In this document: positions 3,520 through 15,008 of the stretch, one piece after another
Position numbering within the stretch: the stretch's first letter is position 1
Layout: the number at the start of each line of letters is the position of its first letter
IMG/VR virus record: IMGVR_UViG_3300034062_002820
Coordinates: 1 to 20,816 of that record
Direction: 5' to 3' (one strand)
Origin: a virus
DNA length: 20,816 bases
Program-made: the position numbers and the translations under genes
The notes under the pieces: model-generated
What the model was told of the DNA's origin: nothing
Database searches by the model: none
The model's input: the letters and a program-made list of their open reading frames with translations, nothing else

Positions 3520-4189
3520 AGGTCACCTCTTTGGCTATGTTCATCCACTCTTTACCGTATTCAACTTCAGTCCAGTCCTTGAACCACGGCCCACCTCGCG
3601 TGAAGTGCACCGCTTGCGGGTTCGGGCAGTCATCCTTGGTGTGCCACCCTTCTAAGTAGTTGTAAGCAACCGGCAGGTTACCGATGCATGCGTCCCACAA
3701 GAACCTGAATTGATGTAAGTACATACCAGACTCACGGTTCACGACCTCGGGGGTCAGTGCCTTCACGTGCAGGTGCTCACAGTTCCACAGGATCATGCTC
3801 GACCAATTCTTGCGCGGATACAGGTGCTGAAACTTGCCGTCCATCTTGGTGGCTTCCTTCGGCTTGTAGTCATGCTTGACCACAACTGCACCATAGTACG
3901 GGTTCATGTAGTCCTGCAGCGCAGCGACATCACCTCGCCACAAGAAGTCGCAGTCCATGAACACCGCCCACCCTTTGTACCCTGCAAGATGTGGCACCAA
4001 GAAGCGTGTGAAGGAGAACTCCGTGGACGAAAGCGGGTCATGCTCACGCCAGTACAAGTTCTTTTCACGCATCTCCTGCTGCTTGATGGGTTGGATATCG
4101 AGCGGCACAGACGTGTGCTTCTCCAACGACCGCTTGCAAGCACGATACGCAACGTCCTCGCGGCTATCCCAACCAATAAAGATTTTCAT
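3512..4189 (-). CDS. Glycosyltransferase, GT8-like (225 aa)
   Basis: A compact GT-A fold glycosyltransferase. It starts MKIFIGWDSREDVAYRACKR, the first Rossmann-like strand and nucleotide-sugar-binding helix seen in GT8-like proteins. The metal/nucleotide DxD motif is FMDCDFLWRG (Asp79 and Asp81). Further downstream are KNWSSMILWNC (residues about 130-140), NYLEGWH and AVHFTRGGPWF, which match acceptor and donor-site elements of phage and bacterial relatives. The preferred start is the ATG at 4187-4189, which shares one base with the upstream stop (TGATG) and has GAGGTG before it; the adjoining GTG at 4192 is an alternative. It directly follows a large TPR-glycosyltransferase fusion. Likely role: transferring a sugar to a host surface glycan, a phage structural protein or modified DNA. 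The acceptor is unknown. Confidence 0.9.
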   Translation of the reverse strand: MKIFIGWDSREDVAYRACKRSLEKHTSVPLDIQPIKQQEMREKNLYWREHDPLSSTEFSFTRFLVPHLAGYKGWAVFMDCDFLWRGDVAALQDYMNPYYGAVVVKHDYKPKEATKMDGKFQHLYPRKNWSSMILWNCEHLHVKALTPEVVNRESGMYLHQFRFLWDACIGNLPVAYNYLEGWHTKDDCPNPQAVHFTRGGPWFKDWTEVEYGKEWMNIAKEVTYE

Positions 4190-7329: not shown

Positions 7330-7972
7330 CGACCACCTCGCCTTGAATGTCAAACAGACCCCAACCCATGCCCGCACTATTCTTGGAGTCCGGGCGACCT
7401 TCACCGATACCAACCTGCTGACCGACTCGCATCATCAAGTTGATGATGTCATTGTGGCTGAACATATCGCCGTCGTATCGAACACGCACGGTCATCTTCC
7501 AGTTCTTCCACATCGGACGCACTCGGATATCCACCGCCCCGTTGTCGTTGCGAGCATACGTCGTGTGACGTTGCGGCTCACCAAAGATCCGAATCAACGG
7601 CGTCTCATCGTCCACATCGTAACCATCTGCCAACACGAACGCAGCGAGCTTGGCGTGCGTCATCTTGTATCCGACCGTACGACAGGCCGAAATCATCGCG
7701 TTTCTGAATGCACCGGCTGGCACACCAGACCAACCCTCATGGGTCAAGTGCATCGCGCCCGAATACACTTCGTCAAAGTTCTTCGGCTCACGCTTCCTCT
7801 TGCCCGTTGCACGGGAACCTTCCTTCTGCGTAGCAATGATCTGCTCACGCGCTTTCCGACTGAACTTGTTAATCACAAGCGGAGCCGCACCCACAATGTT
7901 GATCTCTGCAATCCGAAACTTCGGAGCCGGGATCTCTACCTTTTCAATCTTCGCATTTTCCTTCGTAGCCAT
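7313..7972 (-). CDS. Conserved phage protein with glycine-rich C-terminal loop (219 aa)
   Basis: The ATG at 7970-7972 has AGAGG eight bases upstream; the TTG two codons earlier is less likely. The chain begins MATKENAKIEKVEIPAPKFR and then IAEINIVGAAPLVINKFSRK, a strand-rich start. The middle contains HEGWSGVPAGAFRNAMISAC and DETPLIRIFGEPQRH. The C-terminus has VGQQVGIGEGRPDSKNSAG followed by GMGWGLFDIQGE. It is a recurrent phage protein, always near replication genes in my recollection, with no named function. The glycine-rich loop followed by a beta strand resembles that of RAMP/Cas7-like RNA-binding folds, which is an inference from pattern only. It is the first gene after the terminator at 8022-8045 and so heads the leftward operon. 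Confidence 0.82.
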   Translation of the reverse strand: MATKENAKIEKVEIPAPKFRIAEINIVGAAPLVINKFSRKAREQIIATQKEGSRATGKRKREPKNFDEVYSGAMHLTHEGWSGVPAGAFRNAMISACRTVGYKMTHAKLAAFVLADGYDVDDETPLIRIFGEPQRHTTYARNDNGAVDIRVRPMWKNWKMTVRVRYDGDMFSHNDIINLMMRVGQQVGIGEGRPDSKNSAGMGWGLFDIQGEVVDVVAA

Positions 7973-8021
7973 TTTCAATTACCTCTGTTGTTAATTACTA
8001 AACACACTTACTCAACACTCT

Positions 8022-8045
8022 AAAAAAGCCCGAACGATTCCGGGC
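8022..8045 (-). terminator. Intrinsic terminator (leftward)
   Basis: On the minus strand GCCCG-GAATCGTT-CGGGC is followed directly by six T residues (8022-8027). The stem is five G/C pairs, possibly extended by one A-T. It would end transcripts from the nuclease/DUF3310 operon after they have crossed the period-5 array, and separates that operon from the gene starting at 7972. No good promoter for the 7972 gene was identified in the 50 bases that follow. Confidence 0.75.
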
Positions 8046-8486
8046 GTTACCAAACCGTGCCACACCTAGCGTTGCCTGCGATGCTGAACCATGCCCCACC
8101 TTGCCAAACCGTGCCTCACCTCGCCTGCCCGTCCAAACCTCGCGCTGACTCACCTAGCCCGAAGCCGCCATGCCTGCGATTCCTTACCATGCCTTGTCCA
8201 ACCGGAACTTGCCCGACGACTCCACGCCTTGCCCGTCCGAGCCTGACCGCGCCTGCGATTCCTTACCTCGCCCCGCAGCGCCAAACCAGTACGCACCTCG
8301 CCTCACCATGCCTGCGATGCCCAACCACACCGGAACATACCCCGCCTAACCGCGCCGCGACGGGCCTTGCCTGCGATACCAAACTGAACCCCACCATGTC
8401 ATGTCATGTCTCGCCACGCCTTGCCTTACCTGCGATGCCAAATCCCACCCTACCTAACCGGGCCTTACCGAACCTTGCCTGCCTTG
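8046..8486 (-). repeat. Degenerate period-5 array (GGNNN on the minus strand)
   Basis: Over about 440 bases, CC dinucleotides on the plus strand recur every five bases with occasional one-base slips. The clearest stretch is 8089-8130, where nearly every pentamer ends in CC. The minus strand, which is the transcribed sense here, reads GG every five bases with three-base spacers. The octamer CCTGCGAT recurs at 8075, 8173, 8252, 8311, 8370 and 8429; the last four are exactly 59 bases apart. A triplicated ATGTC lies at 8396-8410. It sits between the DUF3310 gene and a terminator, so it would be a long 3' untranslated region. A plus-strand open frame crosses it (8057-8521), but its Pro/Cys/Leu-rich product follows the repeat and looks non-coding. 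Confidence 0.8.
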
Positions 8487-8888
8487 TTACGCTCGCTTCC
8501 TCGCGTCGATCTCGCGCTTGAGATACCACAACGCCTTCTCCAAGTCCTGCACAGGGTCGCTAGCCTTCTTACCGGCACGGCTGATGTACTTGACGGCGTT
8601 ACCCAAACGGAAGTTCAAATCTTTGGCTTCGATGAAGTCGATGACTTCGATACCACCGGCCTTGTAGTGCGGAGGATGGTTCACGAGGTCGGGATTCGTT
8701 TCACCCGCCCACTCCTCAATTGTCATCTGTTTCGCTTCGGGCTTTACCGCTTCGACTTCCTGCGACTTCTCGCGTTCCTTCCAGATGACAGTCCAGACAT
8801 AATTCTTTGAAACACCAAGAGTCTTAGCGATGTAATCCGCGCTCTTACCCTTCGCCAGATAGCGGCGAATCTTTGCACTCATAGTCAC
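8487..8888 (-). CDS. HTH plus DUF3310 protein (133 aa)
   Basis: The N-terminal third is a helix-turn-helix (AKGKSADYIAKTLGVSKNYV, residues 13-32), resembling resolvase or sigma-4 type recognition helices. After an acidic linker comes a DUF3310 domain at about 70-128: VNHPPHYKAGGIEVIDFIEA, FRLGNAVKYISRAGKK and LEKALWYLKREID. DUF3310 is widespread in phages and is sometimes called a phage nucleotide kinase-like protein; its biochemical activity is not settled. The GTG at 8886-8888 overlaps the nuclease stop as GTGA and has AGAGGAG eight bases upstream; an ATG two codons later is too far from that site. The HTH fusion suggests a DNA-linked role. The gene is followed by the period-5 array. Confidence 0.88.
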   Translation of the reverse strand: MTMSAKIRRYLAKGKSADYIAKTLGVSKNYVWTVIWKEREKSQEVEAVKPEAKQMTIEEWAGETNPDLVNHPPHYKAGGIEVIDFIEAKDLNFRLGNAVKYISRAGKKASDPVQDLEKALWYLKREIDARKRA

Positions 8889-9163
8889 TTGATCAACTCC
8901 TCTAATTTACTGATATTGGTTTCATCAACTACGAAGGCTCTGCCACCCGCATCTCTGATGCGTTGCATCGCCGCCTCTTGCAAAGCCGTGGGCTTGTTCC
9001 CACCCGCCTTACATTCAATCGCCACGAACGCACCCCGATAACAGACTAAAAAGTCCGGTGTGCCGCTCAACCCATATCCGCCGGTCGCAGGCATCGCGTA
9101 GTACGCGCCCAACTCGTGAAGAACCTTCTTCACCTTGATCTTGATTTTGGCTTCGGGAGTCAT
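8885..9163 (-). CDS. VRR-NUC family nuclease (92 aa)
   Basis: A minimal PD-(D/E)xK nuclease. It starts MTPEAKIKIKVKKVLHELGA, then YYAMPATGGYGLSGTPDFLV (catalytic Asp37), then AFVAIECKAGGNKPTALQ with the ExK pair Glu50/Lys52, and ends in a helix (MQRIRDAGGRAFVV). This is the stand-alone VRR-NUC domain known from phages, related to Holliday-junction resolvases and structure-specific nucleases. It could process recombination or replication intermediates or degrade host DNA. The start is ATG at 9161-9163; a TTG six codons earlier is possible. A TTGACA box at 9195-9200 would put the transcription start almost at this ATG, so a leaderless message is possible. Translation is coupled to the DUF3310 gene by GTGA. 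Confidence 0.9.
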   Translation of the reverse strand: MTPEAKIKIKVKKVLHELGAYYAMPATGGYGLSGTPDFLVCYRGAFVAIECKAGGNKPTALQEAAMQRIRDAGGRAFVVDETNISKLEELIK

Positions 9164-9171
9164 GCCACCGA

Positions 9172-9200
9172 CGATAAACAAATCTTTACTTACTTGTCAA
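9172..9200 (-). promoter_or_regulatory. Candidate sigma70-type promoter for the nuclease operon
   Basis: The minus strand has a perfect TTGACA at 9195-9200, a 17-base spacer containing GTAAAGA (9183-9189), and TTATCG at 9172-9177 as a weak -10. Two GCTCGCAC copies (9205-9212 and 9215-9222) lie immediately upstream and could be operator or activator sites. The predicted start would be within a few bases of the ATG at 9163. Confidence 0.45.
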
Positions 9201-9204
9201 CCCC

Positions 9205-9222
9205 GCTCGCACCGGCTCGCAC
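9205..9222. repeat. GCTCGCAC direct repeat pair
   Basis: Two copies of GCTCGCAC ten bases apart, the second inside the 12-mer ACCGGCTCGCAC that also occurs twice at 12155-12166 and 12221-12232. They sit just upstream of the TTGACA box of the nuclease operon and downstream of the tiny-gene cluster. Probably protein-binding sites, or copies of a small dispersed repeat. Confidence 0.6.
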
Positions 9223-9227
9223 ACGGT

Positions 9228-9425
9228 TTAGAACGGGTCCAAACTCTGTGACTGCACCGGCTCATCAAGCGGCAGACTCAACTGCATCGTCATCTGCTTG
9301 GGCCTACACCACCACTCGCGCAGTTCGTAAAGCTCGCATTCGTGGTCGAAGACCTGTTGCTGAATCCACCCATCGTCGTCCTCAACAGGAACCCACCAAT
9401 CGTTCTGAATCTCGATCATCTTCAT
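9228..9425 (-). CDS. Small hypothetical protein (65 aa)
   Basis: Not recognised. The protein begins MKMIEIQNDWWVPVEDDDGW and has an aromatic and acidic centre (CELYELREWWCRPKQMTM), ending PLDEPVQSQSLDPF. The start ATG is preceded by GAGGTGCGAAC, a variant of the GGTGCGAGCATGA junction used by two genes upstream. It is the last gene of the tiny-gene cluster. Highly acidic and tryptophan-rich, the type of small protein that often targets host enzymes, but nothing specific supports that. Confidence 0.7.
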   Translation of the reverse strand: MKMIEIQNDWWVPVEDDDGWIQQQVFDHECELYELREWWCRPKQMTMQLSLPLDEPVQSQSLDPF

Positions 9426-9434
9426 GTTCGCACC

Positions 9435-9707
9435 TCAAGGCTCGTCAATCGAAACCGCCGAGCCACCATCCAACTCCGCCGCCGCGTCCGAATACAAGTC
9501 AGGCACAGCATCAGGGTCTACAGCAACCGGCTTGGGTAACTCATGGTATGTCCCGTCCTTGTAGTGGATACCGACCAGACTTACCCACTCGACCTCTACC
9601 CCGTCGTCCAAGTAGAAATCGAGGGTTGCGCTGAATTCAGCCTTGAACCCCAACGCCCGACTTGTGAACTCGAACGGCGAACTGTATTGACGCTTTTTGC
9701 GGCTCAT
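9435..9707 (-). CDS. Hypothetical protein (90 aa)
   Basis: Not recognised. The ATG at 9705-9707 sits in the junction GGAGGTGCGAGCATGA and overlaps the preceding stop by four bases; a longer frame to 9755 would run into that gene. The product starts MSRKKRQYSSPFEFTSRALG and has a beta-rich middle (AEFSATLDFYLDDGVEVEWV) and SLVGIHYKDGTYHELPKP. The acidic tail is DLYSDAAAELDGGSAVSIDE. Likely a small beta-domain with a disordered acidic end. Confidence 0.75.
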   Translation of the reverse strand: MSRKKRQYSSPFEFTSRALGFKAEFSATLDFYLDDGVEVEWVSLVGIHYKDGTYHELPKPVAVDPDAVPDLYSDAAAELDGGSAVSIDEP

Positions 9708-9892
9708 GCTCGCACCTCCCGGTTCTTCGGGTCTTGCTCGACCCACCGCATCCACTCACTCAAAGTCTTCCGCGCCTCGGCTCGACTGATCCCAAAAGCC
9801 CCTTCAAGATAGGGCGCAGCCCCGAACATATTGGTCGCCCCGCTCTCACGCAGCCGATTCAAAAACACAAACCGTTCGTCAGTTTCGTTCAT
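9704..9892 (-). CDS. Small conserved helical hypothetical protein (62 aa)
   Basis: The protein MNETDERFVFLNRLRESGAT continues NMFGAAPYLEGAFGISRAEA and RKTLSEWMRWVEQDPKNR. The pattern (FLNxLRESGxxNMFGAxPYLxxxFGxSRxEAxxxLxxWM) is familiar from phages and some bacterial genomes as an unannotated small protein. The segment FGISRAEARKTLSEWM may be a helix-turn-helix-like element. It starts in the junction GGTGCGAGCATGA (9889-9901) and ends in a second copy of the same junction (VRA, then stop). Function not established. Confidence 0.82.
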   Translation of the reverse strand: MNETDERFVFLNRLRESGATNMFGAAPYLEGAFGISRAEARKTLSEWMRWVEQDPKNREVRA

Positions 9893-10086
9893 GCTCGCAC
9901 CCCCAGTACTGTTTCAACCGAACGCATAGCACGCCGAACCTCAAACTCGGTCAGGCTCGACGCAAAACCTTCAGCCAGTTGCTGCGCCTCACGCATCCTA
10001 TCCTCACTCGGCGCAGTCACAGCCAAAAATAATGCCAGTTCCAACGCCTCACGCGGCGTCTGTGGCGTTTTTAATTCGATGGTCAT
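9889..10086 (-). CDS. Small helical hypothetical protein (65 aa)
   Basis: The start is ATG at 10084-10086, preceded by AAGGAGGGGTGAAC; the longer frame to 10197 lies inside the neighbouring gene. The product begins MTIELKTPQTPREALELALF and continues LAVTAPSEDRMREAQQLAEG, then TEFEVRRAMRSVETVLGVRA. The repeated helix pattern (EALELALFLAVTAPSEDRMREAQQLAE) resembles small phage proteins seen in other environmental phages. Four-base ATGA overlap with the next gene. No function known. Confidence 0.78.
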   Translation of the reverse strand: MTIELKTPQTPREALELALFLAVTAPSEDRMREAQQLAEGFASSLTEFEVRRAMRSVETVLGVRA

Positions 10087-10088
10087 GT

Positions 10089-10304
10089 TCACCCCTCCTT
10101 TCCTTCTATCTCTTCCGACTCGACTACCTCGACCTCGATAGGATGGTCGATGAGGATGATGCTTTGACCATCGGTGAGTCCGTTGATGGCCGTCCACGCT
10201 AGGGATTCGGCCTTGTCACGCGCCTCTTCCTCGCTACGCGCCTTGACCTCGACAGAGACAGACAGCGTGACATCGGATTTCAGTTCAACTAGATAAGTCT
10301 TCAT
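10089..10304 (-). CDS. Small conserved hypothetical protein (71 aa)
   Basis: The chain begins MKTYLVELKSDVTLSVSVEV and continues KARSEEEARDKAESLAW, a beta-strand pair followed by a helix. This beta-alpha pattern with the EEEARDKAE helix is a common small phage fold in which a two-stranded sheet packs on a helix. The end is very acidic (EVEVVESEEIEGKEG). The ATG follows GGGAGGG by five bases, and the previous stop is one base away. A related strand-helix arrangement (VMVKVWVCAENEADAKELAS) appears in the protein at 11692-12090. Confidence 0.78.
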   Translation of the reverse strand: MKTYLVELKSDVTLSVSVEVKARSEEEARDKAESLAWTAINGLTDGQSIILIDHPIEVEVVESEEIEGKEG

Positions 10305-10305
10305 A

Positions 10306-10476
10306 TCAACCCTCCCTCAAGAAATACTTGCGCCCGTTGTCGTCATCATGCAAGTCCTCGTCCTCGTAAAACTCGGTGTCGTAGTCCCAGATTTCCACAT
10401 CCACACCGTCCGGTGCTTGGATAACCTCGGGGATGCCCCCGTTGATGGTGATGATCACTCGCTTCTTGTCAGTCAT
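10306..10476 (-). CDS. Small acidic hypothetical protein (56 aa)
   Basis: The start is ATG at 10474-10476 with AGAGGAC five bases upstream; it overlaps the end of the HTH mini-gene. The product begins MTDKKRVIITINGGIPEVIQ and then APDGVDVEIWDYDTEFYEDE, ending RKYFLREG. The start VIITINGGIPEVIQAPDGVDVEIWDYD is a pattern often seen in small proteins of phages and proteobacteria (beta-rich, unknown role). Extremely acidic in the second half, with no cysteine or membrane segment. Confidence 0.76.
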   Translation of the reverse strand: MTDKKRVIITINGGIPEVIQAPDGVDVEIWDYDTEFYEDEDLHDDDNGRKYFLREG

Positions 10477-10619
10477 GTCTTGTCCTCTTCTGTCCAATCA
10501 AACGCAGTTAAAACCTCGTAGACAACAAACAATGACAGCTTCAGAGAATCGGCAATCTCTTTCTCCTTCATGCCGTCCTTGTAGTACATCGTCAAGATTT
10601 TCAAGTCTGTGTCGTTCAT
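10473..10619 (-). CDS. HTH mini-protein B (48 aa)
   Basis: A tiny protein, MNDTDLKILTMYYKDGMKEK followed by EIADSLKLSLFVVYEVLTAF. It resembles an isolated sigma-region-4/LuxR-type helix-turn-helix: first helix DLKILTMYY, second helix EKEIADSLKLS, recognition helix LFVVYEVLTAF. It is a paralogue of the 47-residue gene at 10820-10963 with the same first six residues. The start lies in the junction GGAGATGTGAGATGAAC (variant at 10615-10631). A role as a small transcription regulator is plausible; with so short a chain it may act as a dimer or as an inhibitor. Confidence 0.72.
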   Translation of the reverse strand: MNDTDLKILTMYYKDGMKEKEIADSLKLSLFVVYEVLTAFDWTEEDKT

Positions 10620-10620
10620 C

Positions 10621-10809
10621 TCACATCTCCTCCTTGTCTGCGCCGTACATTTCTTCGACCCACGCGCTGTGCGCCCCGGATTCGGCACAGAATCTGTCGC
10701 ACTTATGTACCAATGACTCGACGATGGCGTCGGCCTCGTTGCTGTCGGGGTCTTCAATGCCTTCAAACTCAAACACCACCAGAACCCGCAATGATTTCTT
10801 CTCGTTCAT
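10621..10809 (-). CDS. Small hypothetical protein between the HTH paralogues (62 aa)
   Basis: The start is ATG at 10807-10809 in the junction AGGAGGTGTGAGATGAA; a longer frame to 10896 overlaps the HTH mini-gene and is rejected. The protein begins MNEKKSLRVLVVFEFEGIED and continues with PDSNEADAIVESLVHKCDRF, then AHSAWVEEMYGADKEEM. The layout strand (LRVLVVFEFEGI), loop (DPDSNEAD) and helix (AIVESLVHKCD) is a small alpha/beta unit. No family recognised. Confidence 0.75.
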   Translation of the reverse strand: MNEKKSLRVLVVFEFEGIEDPDSNEADAIVESLVHKCDRFCAESGAHSAWVEEMYGADKEEM

Positions 10810-11128: not shown

Positions 11129-11278
11129 TCACACCTCCTCATCAAAACTAGCCGTGTCACCATCAGCGTAGGCAAGAGCCTCTGCAATGTAGCCATGCGC
11201 CTCGCAGCCCTCCTCGACTAACTTGTACGCCTCACGCAGCGCGACCGCGATGCGGTTCAGCCGTTCTTGTTTGTTCAT
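11129..11278 (-). CDS. Small helical hypothetical protein (49 aa)
   Basis: The start is ATG at 11276-11278 in the conserved junction; the frame extending to 11320 is a shadow of the upstream gene. The product MNKQERLNRIAVALREAYKL is helical, followed by VEEGCEAHGYIAEALAYADG and the acidic end DTASFDEEV. The final EEV and stop are encoded by the ribosome-binding junction of the next gene (GAGGAGGTGTGA). Too short for confident family assignment. Confidence 0.72.
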   Translation of the reverse strand: MNKQERLNRIAVALREAYKLVEEGCEAHGYIAEALAYADGDTASFDEEV

Positions 11279-11279
11279 C

Positions 11280-11690
11280 TCACACCTCCTGCCGCAGCGC
11301 GGCATCTGCTGTTTCAGCAACCCAAGTGATTATGTTCAACGCCTCGTCGCGGGGCAGTCCTGCGATGTCGTTTGTGACCTCATGATGGATCTTCTTCAAC
11401 GCTTCACGCAGCCGCTCGTTCTCCTCACGCAGCCACCTGCACTCCAGACTCGATGCCGCCTCATCCCGCGACAGGAGCGCGTGCTCGTCCTTCCACCACT
11501 TGTTCTCCTTACGCAGCCGCTCGACCTCGCTCACCTCCTCGCTAATCAGCACATGGTCTTGTTCCACATAGTCGAACGCTGCATCCCACATCCGGGCATA
11601 GGTTTTCTCGTCGCTCGTATACCAAAGCAAAAAGTTCTCGATGGCTTCAAGCGCAGCGCGTTGCTTGGCGTTCAAATTGTCTCGGTTCAT
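11280..11690 (-). CDS. Coiled-coil hypothetical protein (136 aa)
   Basis: The start is ATG at 11688-11690 in the AGGAGGTGTGAGATGAA junction. The chain begins MNRDNLNAKQRAALEAIENF and has two coiled-coil stretches: EEVSEVERLRKENKWWKDEH near residues 50-70 and CRWLREENERLREALKKIHH near 82-102. The C-terminus NDIAGLPRDEALNIITWVAE is helical. It probably forms a homodimer or an assembly scaffold. A related but shorter coiled-coil protein lies at 2485-2805. No transmembrane segment or catalytic motif. Like its downstream neighbour it ends in EV plus stop within the junction. Confidence 0.76.
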   Translation of the reverse strand: MNRDNLNAKQRAALEAIENFLLWYTSDEKTYARMWDAAFDYVEQDHVLISEEVSEVERLRKENKWWKDEHALLSRDEAASSLECRWLREENERLREALKKIHHEVTNDIAGLPRDEALNIITWVAETADAALRQEV

Positions 11691-11691
11691 C

Positions 11692-12090
11692 TCACACCTC
11701 CTTGTCTTCAGACACGCTAACAACATCAAACGCCGCGACCGGGGTGTCCGCTGTGCATAAAAAACTCATCTCGTCGCTAGCAAGTTCTTTAGCGTCGGCC
11801 TCGTTCTCTGCACACACCCACACCTTGACCATCACGCAAAACTGTTTCGTTTCCGCTTCGGGCGACGGCATCTCGTCCTCATCCTCAAAGTTGTCGGGGT
11901 CTTCCGACCAATCCGTCCAGTACGAATCACCCTCTCCATCGGCGTAGAGTTCCGCAAACTCCTCGTCGGATATCTCCGTGTTGAGGCAGGGCTTTGAGCA
12001 GTAGTACTCGATGCCGGACTCGATGCAGTAGCCCTCGTTCATGCCGCCCTTACACGCTGTGCATTCACGGGCAAACTTCTTTTTAGCCAT
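11692..12090 (-). CDS. Zinc-binding hypothetical protein (132 aa)
   Basis: The ATG at 12088-12090 has GAGGA eight bases upstream; an ATG five codons earlier (12105) has no such site. The N-terminal domain has cysteines arranged like a treble clef or zinc ribbon: ECTACKGGMNEGYCIESG followed by IEYYCSKPCL (CxxC around 9-12, Cys22, CxxxC around 31-35). A very acidic linker follows (EDPDNFEDEDEMPSPEAE). The C-terminal domain is beta-alpha (FCVMVKVWVCAENEADAKEL) and ends VVSVSEDKEV. It is the first gene of the tiny-gene cluster. The zinc part suggests nucleic-acid or protein binding; a host-takeover regulator is a reasonable guess. Confidence 0.78.
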   Translation of the reverse strand: MAKKKFARECTACKGGMNEGYCIESGIEYYCSKPCLNTEISDEEFAELYADGEGDSYWTDWSEDPDNFEDEDEMPSPEAETKQFCVMVKVWVCAENEADAKELASDEMSFLCTADTPVAAFDVVSVSEDKEV

Positions 12091-12158: not shown

Positions 12159-12311
12159 GCTCGCACCCTGTCAAGTACGCCAAACCACTTTTTTTCAATC
12201 TTTTTTGGCGGAGCGGTCGCACCGGCTCGCACCTAGTTTTTCCCGGCCCTGCTCGCACCAGACCTATCCGGCTCGCACACGCTCGCACCCGGTTCTATTT
12301 CAGGCTCGCAC
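12159..12311. repeat. GCTCGCAC repeat cluster (six copies)
   Basis: GCTCGCAC occurs at 12159, 12225, 12251, 12271, 12281 and 12304, in one orientation, with a near copy (GGTCGCAC) at 12215. Several are preceded by ACCG or TCCG. Two further copies lie at 9205 and 9215, and two inside gene junctions at 9708 and 9893. Irregular spacing (10-66 bases) points to dispersed binding sites or a small proliferating repeat rather than a tandem satellite. Confidence 0.75.
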
Positions 12312-13357: not shown

Positions 13358-13834
13358 TTAGAAGATGCGACCGTCAGCGGTAAAGGTGTACTCGTTAATT
13401 TCTAGGCTTTCGTCCACGGCCTTATCAGATAGCGAATACTCCCAGTCCTCGCGCCATGCATGAAAGGCCGCGTGTATCGCAGCATCAAAGGCGGCGCGGG
13501 GGTCGCCGGTCCGCTTCCATTCGTCGTAAAAGGTCTGATATAGCGCACAATCAAGGTGATACCCGGTCGGCATTGCGTCCCGGTTGATCTCCCGCAGCTT
13601 AACCCCGCGTAGCATCTCCGGCGGCATCTCTAACCGGTAGTCGATAGGCGCATAAGGCCCGACCGTCCAATCCTTTAGCCGCGCCCCGTACTTGTCGCAA
13701 AATTTTTCTATGCTATCCCGGTTTTCGGCACTCCAAGGGTAGGGGTCACAACTGCGCCACCAATCCCGTGCGGCCTCTTTCGCCCGGTCGGACAATTCGG
13801 AAAAGGTAAAAATCTGAATTTCTACGGTATGCAT
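13358..13834 (-). CDS. Conserved hypothetical protein with ELSDRAKEAARDWW motif (158 aa)
   Basis: The chain begins MHTVEIQIFTFSELSDRAKE, then AARDWWRSCDPYPWSAENRD and SIEKFCDKYGARLKDWTVGP. The start pattern (strand, then F-ELSDxAKExAR-W) defines a common uncharacterised family on plasmids and phages. The second half is helical (AAFDAAIHAAFHAWREDWEY) and ends VDESLEINEYTFTADGRIF. Rich in tryptophan and tyrosine, no cysteine cluster, no membrane segment. The ATG at 13832-13834 is preceded by GGAGGG seven bases away, in the final codons of the upstream gene. Function unknown. Confidence 0.83.
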   Translation of the reverse strand: MHTVEIQIFTFSELSDRAKEAARDWWRSCDPYPWSAENRDSIEKFCDKYGARLKDWTVGPYAPIDYRLEMPPEMLRGVKLREINRDAMPTGYHLDCALYQTFYDEWKRTGDPRAAFDAAIHAAFHAWREDWEYSLSDKAVDESLEINEYTFTADGRIF

Positions 13835-13837
13835 GGT

Positions 13838-14041
13838 TCAGCCCTCCGCCGGTATCAATGCGCCATTGCATTCGATCAAGTGGCCCCACAAGCCAAGCCG
13901 CCCAATCACGACTTCGATTTGTTCTTGTGCCCTTGAGGACGCGGCACGATGCAGCGCGGCAAGCATCCGGGCGGACATGGCGGGGTTGATGGCGGCGTAG
14001 GCTTCGGCCTTTAACGCTTCGCGCCGTTGGTTGCGTGTCAT
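13838..14041 (-). CDS. Small hypothetical protein, first gene of leftward cassette (67 aa)
   Basis: The product starts MTRNQRREALKAEAYAAINP and continues AMSARMLAALHRAASSRAQE, then QIEVVIGRLGLWGHLIECNG. It is alanine- and arginine-rich and mostly helical. Not recognised beyond its association with the next gene. The ATG at 14039-14041 has GGAG nine bases upstream. A promoter-like TATACT lies about 38 bases upstream. It ends three bases before the start of the following gene, whose ribosome site it encodes. Confidence 0.75.
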   Translation of the reverse strand: MTRNQRREALKAEAYAAINPAMSARMLAALHRAASSRAQEQIEVVIGRLGLWGHLIECNGALIPAEG

Positions 14042-14078
14042 GTTGTGTTCTCCGGTAGGTGAGGGAATCGACCTAGTA

Positions 14079-14095
14079 AGTATACATATCTTTAC
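14079..14095 (-). promoter_or_regulatory. Candidate leftward promoter for the 14041 operon
   Basis: The minus strand carries TATACT at 14079-14084 as a good -10 box, with GTAAAGA just upstream (14089-14095). The -35 region is weak (GTGTTG at 17 bases). The predicted leader is about 30 bases. The surrounding GTAAGTATACATATCTTTAC is partly symmetric around GTATAC, so an operator is possible. Confidence 0.4.
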
Positions 14096-14125
14096 AACCT
14101 ACAACACGCCCGGACGCGAAATTTT

Positions 14126-14140
14126 CTAGGCCGGGCCTAG
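14126..14140. repeat. Perfect 7-base-arm palindrome CTAGGCC-G-GGCCTAG
   Basis: Arms of seven bases surround a single G at 14133. It lies between the leftward promoter-like box and the TTGTGTCA array. No T tract follows, so an operator or recombinase-type site is more likely than a terminator. Confidence 0.6.
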
Positions 14141-14172
14141 CCGGGCGGGGCCTTGTGCCGGGTTTGTCCCGC

Positions 14173-14203
14173 TTGTGTCAGCGGGTCGGAAATGCTGACA
14201 CAA
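14173..14203. repeat. Perfect 10-base inverted repeat TTGTGTCAGC / GCTGACACAA
   Basis: Arms at 14173-14182 and 14194-14203 with an 11-base spacer, containing two of the seven TGTGTCA copies. The centre-to-centre distance of 21 bases is two helical turns, as expected for a dimeric DNA-binding protein. Confidence 0.75.
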
Positions 14204-14238
14204 AAAAAGTTTAGTAGAATCAATAGGTTATGCGTTTC

Positions 14239-14628
14239 TTGTGTCAGGTTTTGTGCGGGTTTTTCTTTACTTATTTTTGCGAAAAACCGGGCGTGTCGGA
14301 GCGTAAGTAATTGATTTTATTAGATATAGATAGTAATAAATAAAGAATAGAAAAGGCGTTTTGTGTCAGAAAAAGGCGATTTTTAAAAAATGAGCGTCCG
14401 GCAAAATGTTTTTTAGTTTTGGGGACACTTGCGGCGGTGCCTTTTTGATCCCGTCGCGCTACTGCATTTTCCCCCGCCCCCCTGATTTTCCTGACACAAC
14501 GGCACAAACCCGGTTTTTTCCCTTACATTTCAAGGCTTTACCTTGTGTTGCTAGAATCTACCTTTGACACAAGGCCGGGACACGGCCCAAAAAACCTAGC
14601 CGCGCCAATGGGTTACGCTTGTGTCAGC
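14239..14628. repeat. Further TTGTGTCA / TGACACAA copies
   Basis: Direct copies at 14239-14247, 14361-14369 and 14619-14628; inverted copies at 14491-14499 and 14565-14572. The last is part of an inverted repeat CCTTGTGT (14541-14548) / ACACAAGG (14567-14574). The 14619 copy shares CTTGTGTCAGCGGG with the 14172 copy, bracketing the whole field. Spacing is irregular. Confidence 0.72.
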
Positions 14629-15008
14629 GGGGATTTGATAGAATTCCGTTGCACCGCTCACCGGGTCCGCTAGGCTTGCCCCGTCCGCTAGGCCCGGCGC
14701 GGTCCGCCGGGTGCTACATGATCCCCACGGGGTTAGCGCGACCCCGACCCGGCCCGACATGGCGCGGCCCGGTACAGCCAGAAACAGAAACGCGCCGCTA
14801 GGCCATCCCGTCCGCCTTGTCCGCCGCGCCGACCCCGCCGCCGAAACGGGCCAAGCCCGACCCCACCCTACCCGGCCCCCCCGCGCACAGTTTGGAGTCC
14901 CGCGCTCGCCCCGCCCCGCTTTGATCCACACAAATCACCAGACCTTTTTCAAATTCTGGCTAGGCTGACCCCACCCCCCTCGTATATAGAACCCCCCCGG
15001 TATCAAAT

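Follow-up and report, generated by a model that had tools for sequence, protein, structure and literature searches.

A probable iteron-type replication origin in a podovirus-like phage and its relatives, with a DUF927-class helicase as its presumed initiator

The DNA analysed here, referred to as the window, is a virus record of 20.8 kb (20,816 bases) in which two arms of genes diverge, the leftward one extending to a DNA polymerase at the window's left end and the rightward one carrying the genes for the small terminase (terS), the large terminase and the portal. An earlier note on this DNA had described a field of seven copies of a short motif, in both orientations, between the divergent arms, and both the copies and their setting hold: the word TTGTGTCA occurs exactly seven times, on both strands and always inside 14173-14626, with no further exact copy in the 20,816 bases, and terS begins 390 bp from the last word (Table 1). 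In 100 dinucleotide shuffles of the whole window the word had a mean of 0.86 copies and a maximum of 4, and it is the sole 8-mer of the window with seven copies in 500 bp. When one mismatch is allowed, window-wide enrichment is absent (14 found, 17 expected), so that the exact word is what counts. The perfect 10-base inverted repeat reported at the left edge of the field is confirmed as TTGTGTCAGC (14173-14182) and GCTGACACAA (14194-14203), 23 bp apart from start to start. A second inverted pair had been reported at 14541-14574; the pair is present but imperfect, with TTGTGTTG at 14543 facing TGACACAA at 14565, and lies within a pair of exact 8-base arms, CCTTGTGT/ACACAAGG, that can be read from the sequence. 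The AT-rich island that the motifs were said to flank is real and marks the window's AT maximum over 60 bp (80%), beginning at 14303-14305 between two clusters of words. Both perfect IHF consensus sites of the window are inside the field, which contains no DnaA box, the window's only TTATNCACA being at 11752.

Table 1. Positions of the putative iterons and accompanying features in the window
Feature	Position	Strand	Remark
Weak iteron variant TTGTGCCG	14153..14160	+	
Iteron 1, TTGTGTCA, left arm of the perfect 10-bp inverted repeat	14173..14180	+	Exact match; position kept in relatives
Iteron 2, inverted, 23 bp from iteron 1	14196..14203	-	Exact match; same 23-bp step in word-A and word-B fields
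IHF consensus, perfect, AATCAATAGGTTA (WATCAANNNNTTR)	14218..14230	+	One of two in window
Iteron 3, 43 bp from iteron 2	14239..14246	+	Exact match; 43-bp step also in relatives
AT-rich island, probable melting region	14303..14364	.	Most AT-rich 60 bp of window
IHF consensus, perfect, AATCAATTACTTA	14304..14316	-	One of two in window
Iteron 4	14361..14368	+	Exact match
Iteron 5, second cluster	14492..14499	-	Exact match
Weak iteron variant TTGTGCCG	14500..14507	-	
Weak iteron variant TTGTGTTG	14543..14550	+	
Iteron 6, second cluster, pairs with weak variant TTGTGTTG at 14543	14565..14572	-	Exact match
Iteron 7, 16-base context CGCTTGTGTCAGCGGG identical to iteron 1	14619..14626	+	Exact match

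Several other repeats are found in the window. The early region contains GTGAGATG six times on its minus strand (10617, 10807, 11050, 11125, 11276 and 11688), and at 11276 and 11688 the context in which a small gene starts is AGGAGGTGTGAGATGAAC. A C-rich and strongly GC-skewed stretch at 8075-8436 holds six copies of CCTGCGAT, the last four of them 59 bp apart, and a second array, of GCTCGCAC, occupies 12159-12311. Between the field and terS there are GC-rich repeats, CCGCTAGGC at 14660-14960 in the window and 12-16 copies of GCCTGACCCGC or GAGCAGGTCGAGCA in four relatives (L009, L014, L091, L092).

Judged by the large terminase, the nearest isolated phages are HTVC027P, 023Pt_psg01, DSL-LC04 and HTVC023P, with 49-52% identity, and many closer relatives are available as IMG/VR contigs, one of which (IMGVR_UViG_3300032293_000024) is near-identical to the window's phage. 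Positions 13800-15000 of the window have no DNA match among phage records, and in the literature, covered largely outside subscription papers, we found no account of the field in this phage family. The related contigs keep a field upstream of terS with the same layout, an inverted pair at 23 bp, a step of 43 bp, the AT-rich island and a second cluster, and the AT-rich stretch with GTAAGT.ATTGATTTTATT is present in them as well. The word itself differs between relatives, all copies in a field being changed together: besides TTGTGTCA (word A) there are fields of TTGTTCCA (word B), which have the 23-bp inverted pair, the 43-bp step, the long gap and the second cluster in common with word A, and fields of TTGTTCTA, TTGTTCCG and TTGTACGC. 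The last three all consist of TTGT followed by a differing 4-mer, and they come from a scan anchored on TTGT, which words lacking it would escape. Because the word changes in all copies together, the comparison of these sequences points to a single trans-acting reader. Many word-B relatives carry the field in the opposite orientation with respect to terS.

Further regularities emerge when the fields are taken together. The spacings between sites cluster near multiples of 10.7 bp, with p-values that are optimistic because related contigs are not independent, and at least two words stand on each side of the AT-rich peak in 47 of the 66 distinct fields with five or more words. Across 74 distinct fields the density of perfect IHF consensus sites is 30-fold that of the sequence outside (1.59 versus 0.054 per kb); the fields hold 77 such sites against 9 for a reversed-pattern control, so that composition accounts for part of the excess. 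A cumulative GC-skew extreme at the field, a sign that the earlier note had proposed to look for, is seen in the near-complete relative G002, where the minimum (32,681) falls about 300 bp from the field (32,994-33,379), at a place where gene orientation, which the skew also follows, switches too. The three complete phages with terminase and portal in common (DSL-LC04, 023Pt_psg01 and HTVC023P) have no DUF927 protein and, in the 34-39 kb around the terminase that the field scan covered, no such field. Relatives with the gene layout but without the repeats, which the earlier note had counted as evidence against its reading, do exist, but the three complete phages that have no field are also without DUF927.

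Other repeated sequences were met in these genomes. A 17-bp palindrome, TCCTGACA-N-TGTCAGGA, is found mostly in two copies, at 3825-3841 and 4183-4199 of L066 and also in L017, L054 and L067, and looks like the operator of another regulator. In L157, L158 and L159, five or six copies of GTGTAATT upstream of terS, at steps of 54-55 and 64-65 bp, form another candidate field. HTVC023P (L170) carries CTAGGAAA five times within 11200-11900, around the noncoding region before its annotated terS, possibly a different origin.

The long relatives encode a protein of 935-958 aa in which a primase is fused to a DUF927 helicase (AEP-DUF927), the DUF927 domain being confirmed by Pfam; searches detected it in 15 of 29 and in 4 of 21 records, most of them long. 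The protein of G021, a word-B relative, is 80% identical to that of the word-A relative G015. Its gene lies 19-22 kb from the field, past the equivalent of the window's left end (G002, helicase 7902-10715; G015, field 249-660 and helicase 19,309-22,116), which fits the earlier observation that no initiator can be identified in the window, a fragment without that region. None is seen in the phage's own contig either, and from the gene content of the relatives we infer that an AEP-DUF927 gene is present in this phage too. The G029 fragment (35 kb) and the D5 prophages described below carry fields without a DUF927 match, so that other helicase families, or some other factor, may read the same words.

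The C-terminal 165 residues of the protein of G015, a word-A relative, were modelled (pLDDT 79, pTM 0.62). Among solved structures the predicted fold is best matched by residues 453-567 of SaPIbov1 Rep (8tch_B) and by SCCmec Cch (5dgk_A), each with Z 9.1 over 94-98 residues; structural Z values near 8 can arise by chance, and the weight of the result lies in both top matches being DUF927-class initiator helicases. Plain Foldseek E-values were weak (0.03), the comparison with the Pfam helix-turn-helix family of Cch (HTH_56) gave E 0.03-0.06, below the cut-off, and a full-length sequence search against solved structures returned nothing relevant. In SaPI Rep the iterons are recognised by the C-terminal domain, Cch is a DUF927-bearing relative of SaPIbov1 Rep, and the isolated C-terminal domain of Cch2 binds its origin specifically (PMC7581432). 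With core similarity controlled, the predicted recognition helix does not covary with the word (partial r -0.24), and the wing does so only weakly (p 0.015, one of two tests). Homology of the D5 and DUF927 C-terminal domains is unsupported by profile comparison.

DUF927 genes were then gathered from 300 Burkholderiales genomes irrespective of any repeat, giving 29 loci with 3' sequence that are unrelated to the phages. In 21 of them the 700 bp that follow the gene on its 3' side contain a significantly repeated 7-mer (p ≤0.02 against 100 mononucleotide shuffles), and no significant downstream word was found in the other 8; upstream of the genes the top word scores reach at most 9, downstream up to 42. 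TGT/ACA is part of the top word in 9 of the 21 significant loci, against a background of 15% (p 0.002), and of one of the top three words in 14. The words are mostly TGT plus four bases (TGTCCCC, TGTCCCA, TGTCCCG, TGTTACC, TGTTACA, TGTGCCC, TGTTCCC), some having TGC, and two loci repeat GTGTCAC (L403) and GTGTCAG (L404), the latter forming the core of the word found in the window. Steps of 9-10, 21-24 and 42-44 bp recur, the same 9/23/43 pattern being met again, as in L394 with 44, 23, 10, 10, 11, 23, 43, 9 and 9. When viral contigs were scanned for the 23-bp pair, word-B fields also turned up in unrelated contexts: in four prophage loci the field follows immediately 3' of a D5-type helicase gene that has a prim-pol gene upstream of it, and in L206 it adjoins a DUF927 gene. 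Having been picked by pattern, these loci contain the word unsurprisingly, and it is the class of the neighbouring gene that was unselected. A chromosome scan with the word-A pattern gave 79 stretches, of which only L308 had four words in 700 bp, in chromosomal-looking surroundings, and the left gene of L266, VapE-like by eye, gave nothing with Pfam.

On the basis of these data, we think it highly probable that the field serves a podovirus-like phage as its replication origin, with TTGTGTCA as iterons read by a DUF927-class initiator. An AEP-DUF927 primase-helicase would bind the iterons with its C-terminal winged-helix domain, and its gene would lie beyond the window, about 20 kb off at the far end of the leftward arm. 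Two iteron sets would flank the AT-rich melting region and host IHF would bend the DNA between iterons, so that the initiator could assemble on helically phased sites, melt the AT-rich stretch and then load itself as helicase and primase, replication proceeding from the point of divergence. Protein binding to these words, IHF binding and a replication start at this place are what we infer from the sites, their conservation and phasing, the joint change of words, the initiator class of the relatives with its predicted C-terminal fold, and the similar iteron grammar beside other DUF927 genes.

The origin could in addition be a dual element, through whose iterons the initiator also represses or times early promoters. 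This extension of the origin reading is conceivable, if somewhat doubtful: initiators commonly autoregulate, and TAGAAT boxes follow the starts of iterons 2 and 7 at a distance of 19-20 bp, but that alignment is not kept in relatives and no sigma-70-like promoter is found in the field beyond chance. The missing promoters also weigh against a field of operators through which a phage repressor or activator governs both arms, the word changing with the regulator. Its place between the arms, the phasing and even the joint change of words would suit a regulator as well, yet the three candidate DNA-binding proteins that were compared do not follow the word: the recognition helices of HTH-DUF3310 and of an XRE-like protein adjoining the primase are nearly identical in word-A and word-B phages, and no TerS residue separates word-A from word-B phages. 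The same grammar moreover recurs in unrelated elements, close behind the 3' end of their DUF927 genes, and we regard the operator explanation as improbable. Between the two functions that the earlier note had offered, origin or master regulator, the origin is thus favoured by the two-cluster layout at an AT-rich island, the joint replacement of words, the grammar downstream of DUF927 genes, the IHF sites and the skew minimum of G002, and regulation may be a side role. Packaging sites (pac/cos) bound by the small terminase, suggested by the adjoining terS and by a TerS that diverges faster than TerL, are very unlikely given the lack of a discriminating TerS residue, the inverted fields of many relatives and the fields of D5 prophages and DUF927 elements that are not tied to terS.

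More speculatively, the origins of DUF927 replicons might share a code, in which a near-constant TGT half is joined to a variable half of four bases that has been chosen anew repeatedly, with fixed spacing, across phages and integrated elements; each replicon, forming an origin-specificity group of its own, would in this way avoid firing co-resident phages and satellites or being parasitised by them, an idea that we offer only tentatively. If the origin assignment is true, the presence of a PICI-like origin and initiator class in a large environmental phage family would link satellite and phage replication. It would also show where the origin lies in many viruses that have not been cultivated, and the joint word swaps offer a natural series in which changes of origin specificity can be tested while function is kept.

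Among known systems, the HTVC023P-type phages (HTVC023P, 023Pt_psg01, DSL-LC04) are among the closest isolates by terminase and portal and differ from the field-bearing relatives of the window, in that no DUF927 match and no field of TGT words was found in them. The alpha protein of P4 is a primase fused to an initiator helicase and acts at a repeat-bearing origin; the fusion and the origin repeats are shared, the helicase family is not, and the P4 type I repeats, which we take to be GGTGAACAG, resemble TGGAACAA. SCCmec Cch, a DUF927 protein, is matched by the predicted C-terminal domain of the relatives' helicase, whereas the putative origin of the D5-type Cch2, with only three iterons of core AAGTG (PMC7581432), differs from the window field in word and layout. 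The predicted domain likewise matches SaPIbov1 Rep, and the origins of PICIs, in which an AT-rich region is invariably flanked by two sets of iterons (PMC6092414), resemble the window in having words on both sides of such a region. A PICI origin, however, lies directly 3' of rep, and because the field of the window's relatives is 19-22 kb from the helicase gene and belongs to a phage that itself encodes terminase and portal, not to a satellite, we do not file it as a PICI/SaPI origin, although it would work in the manner of one.
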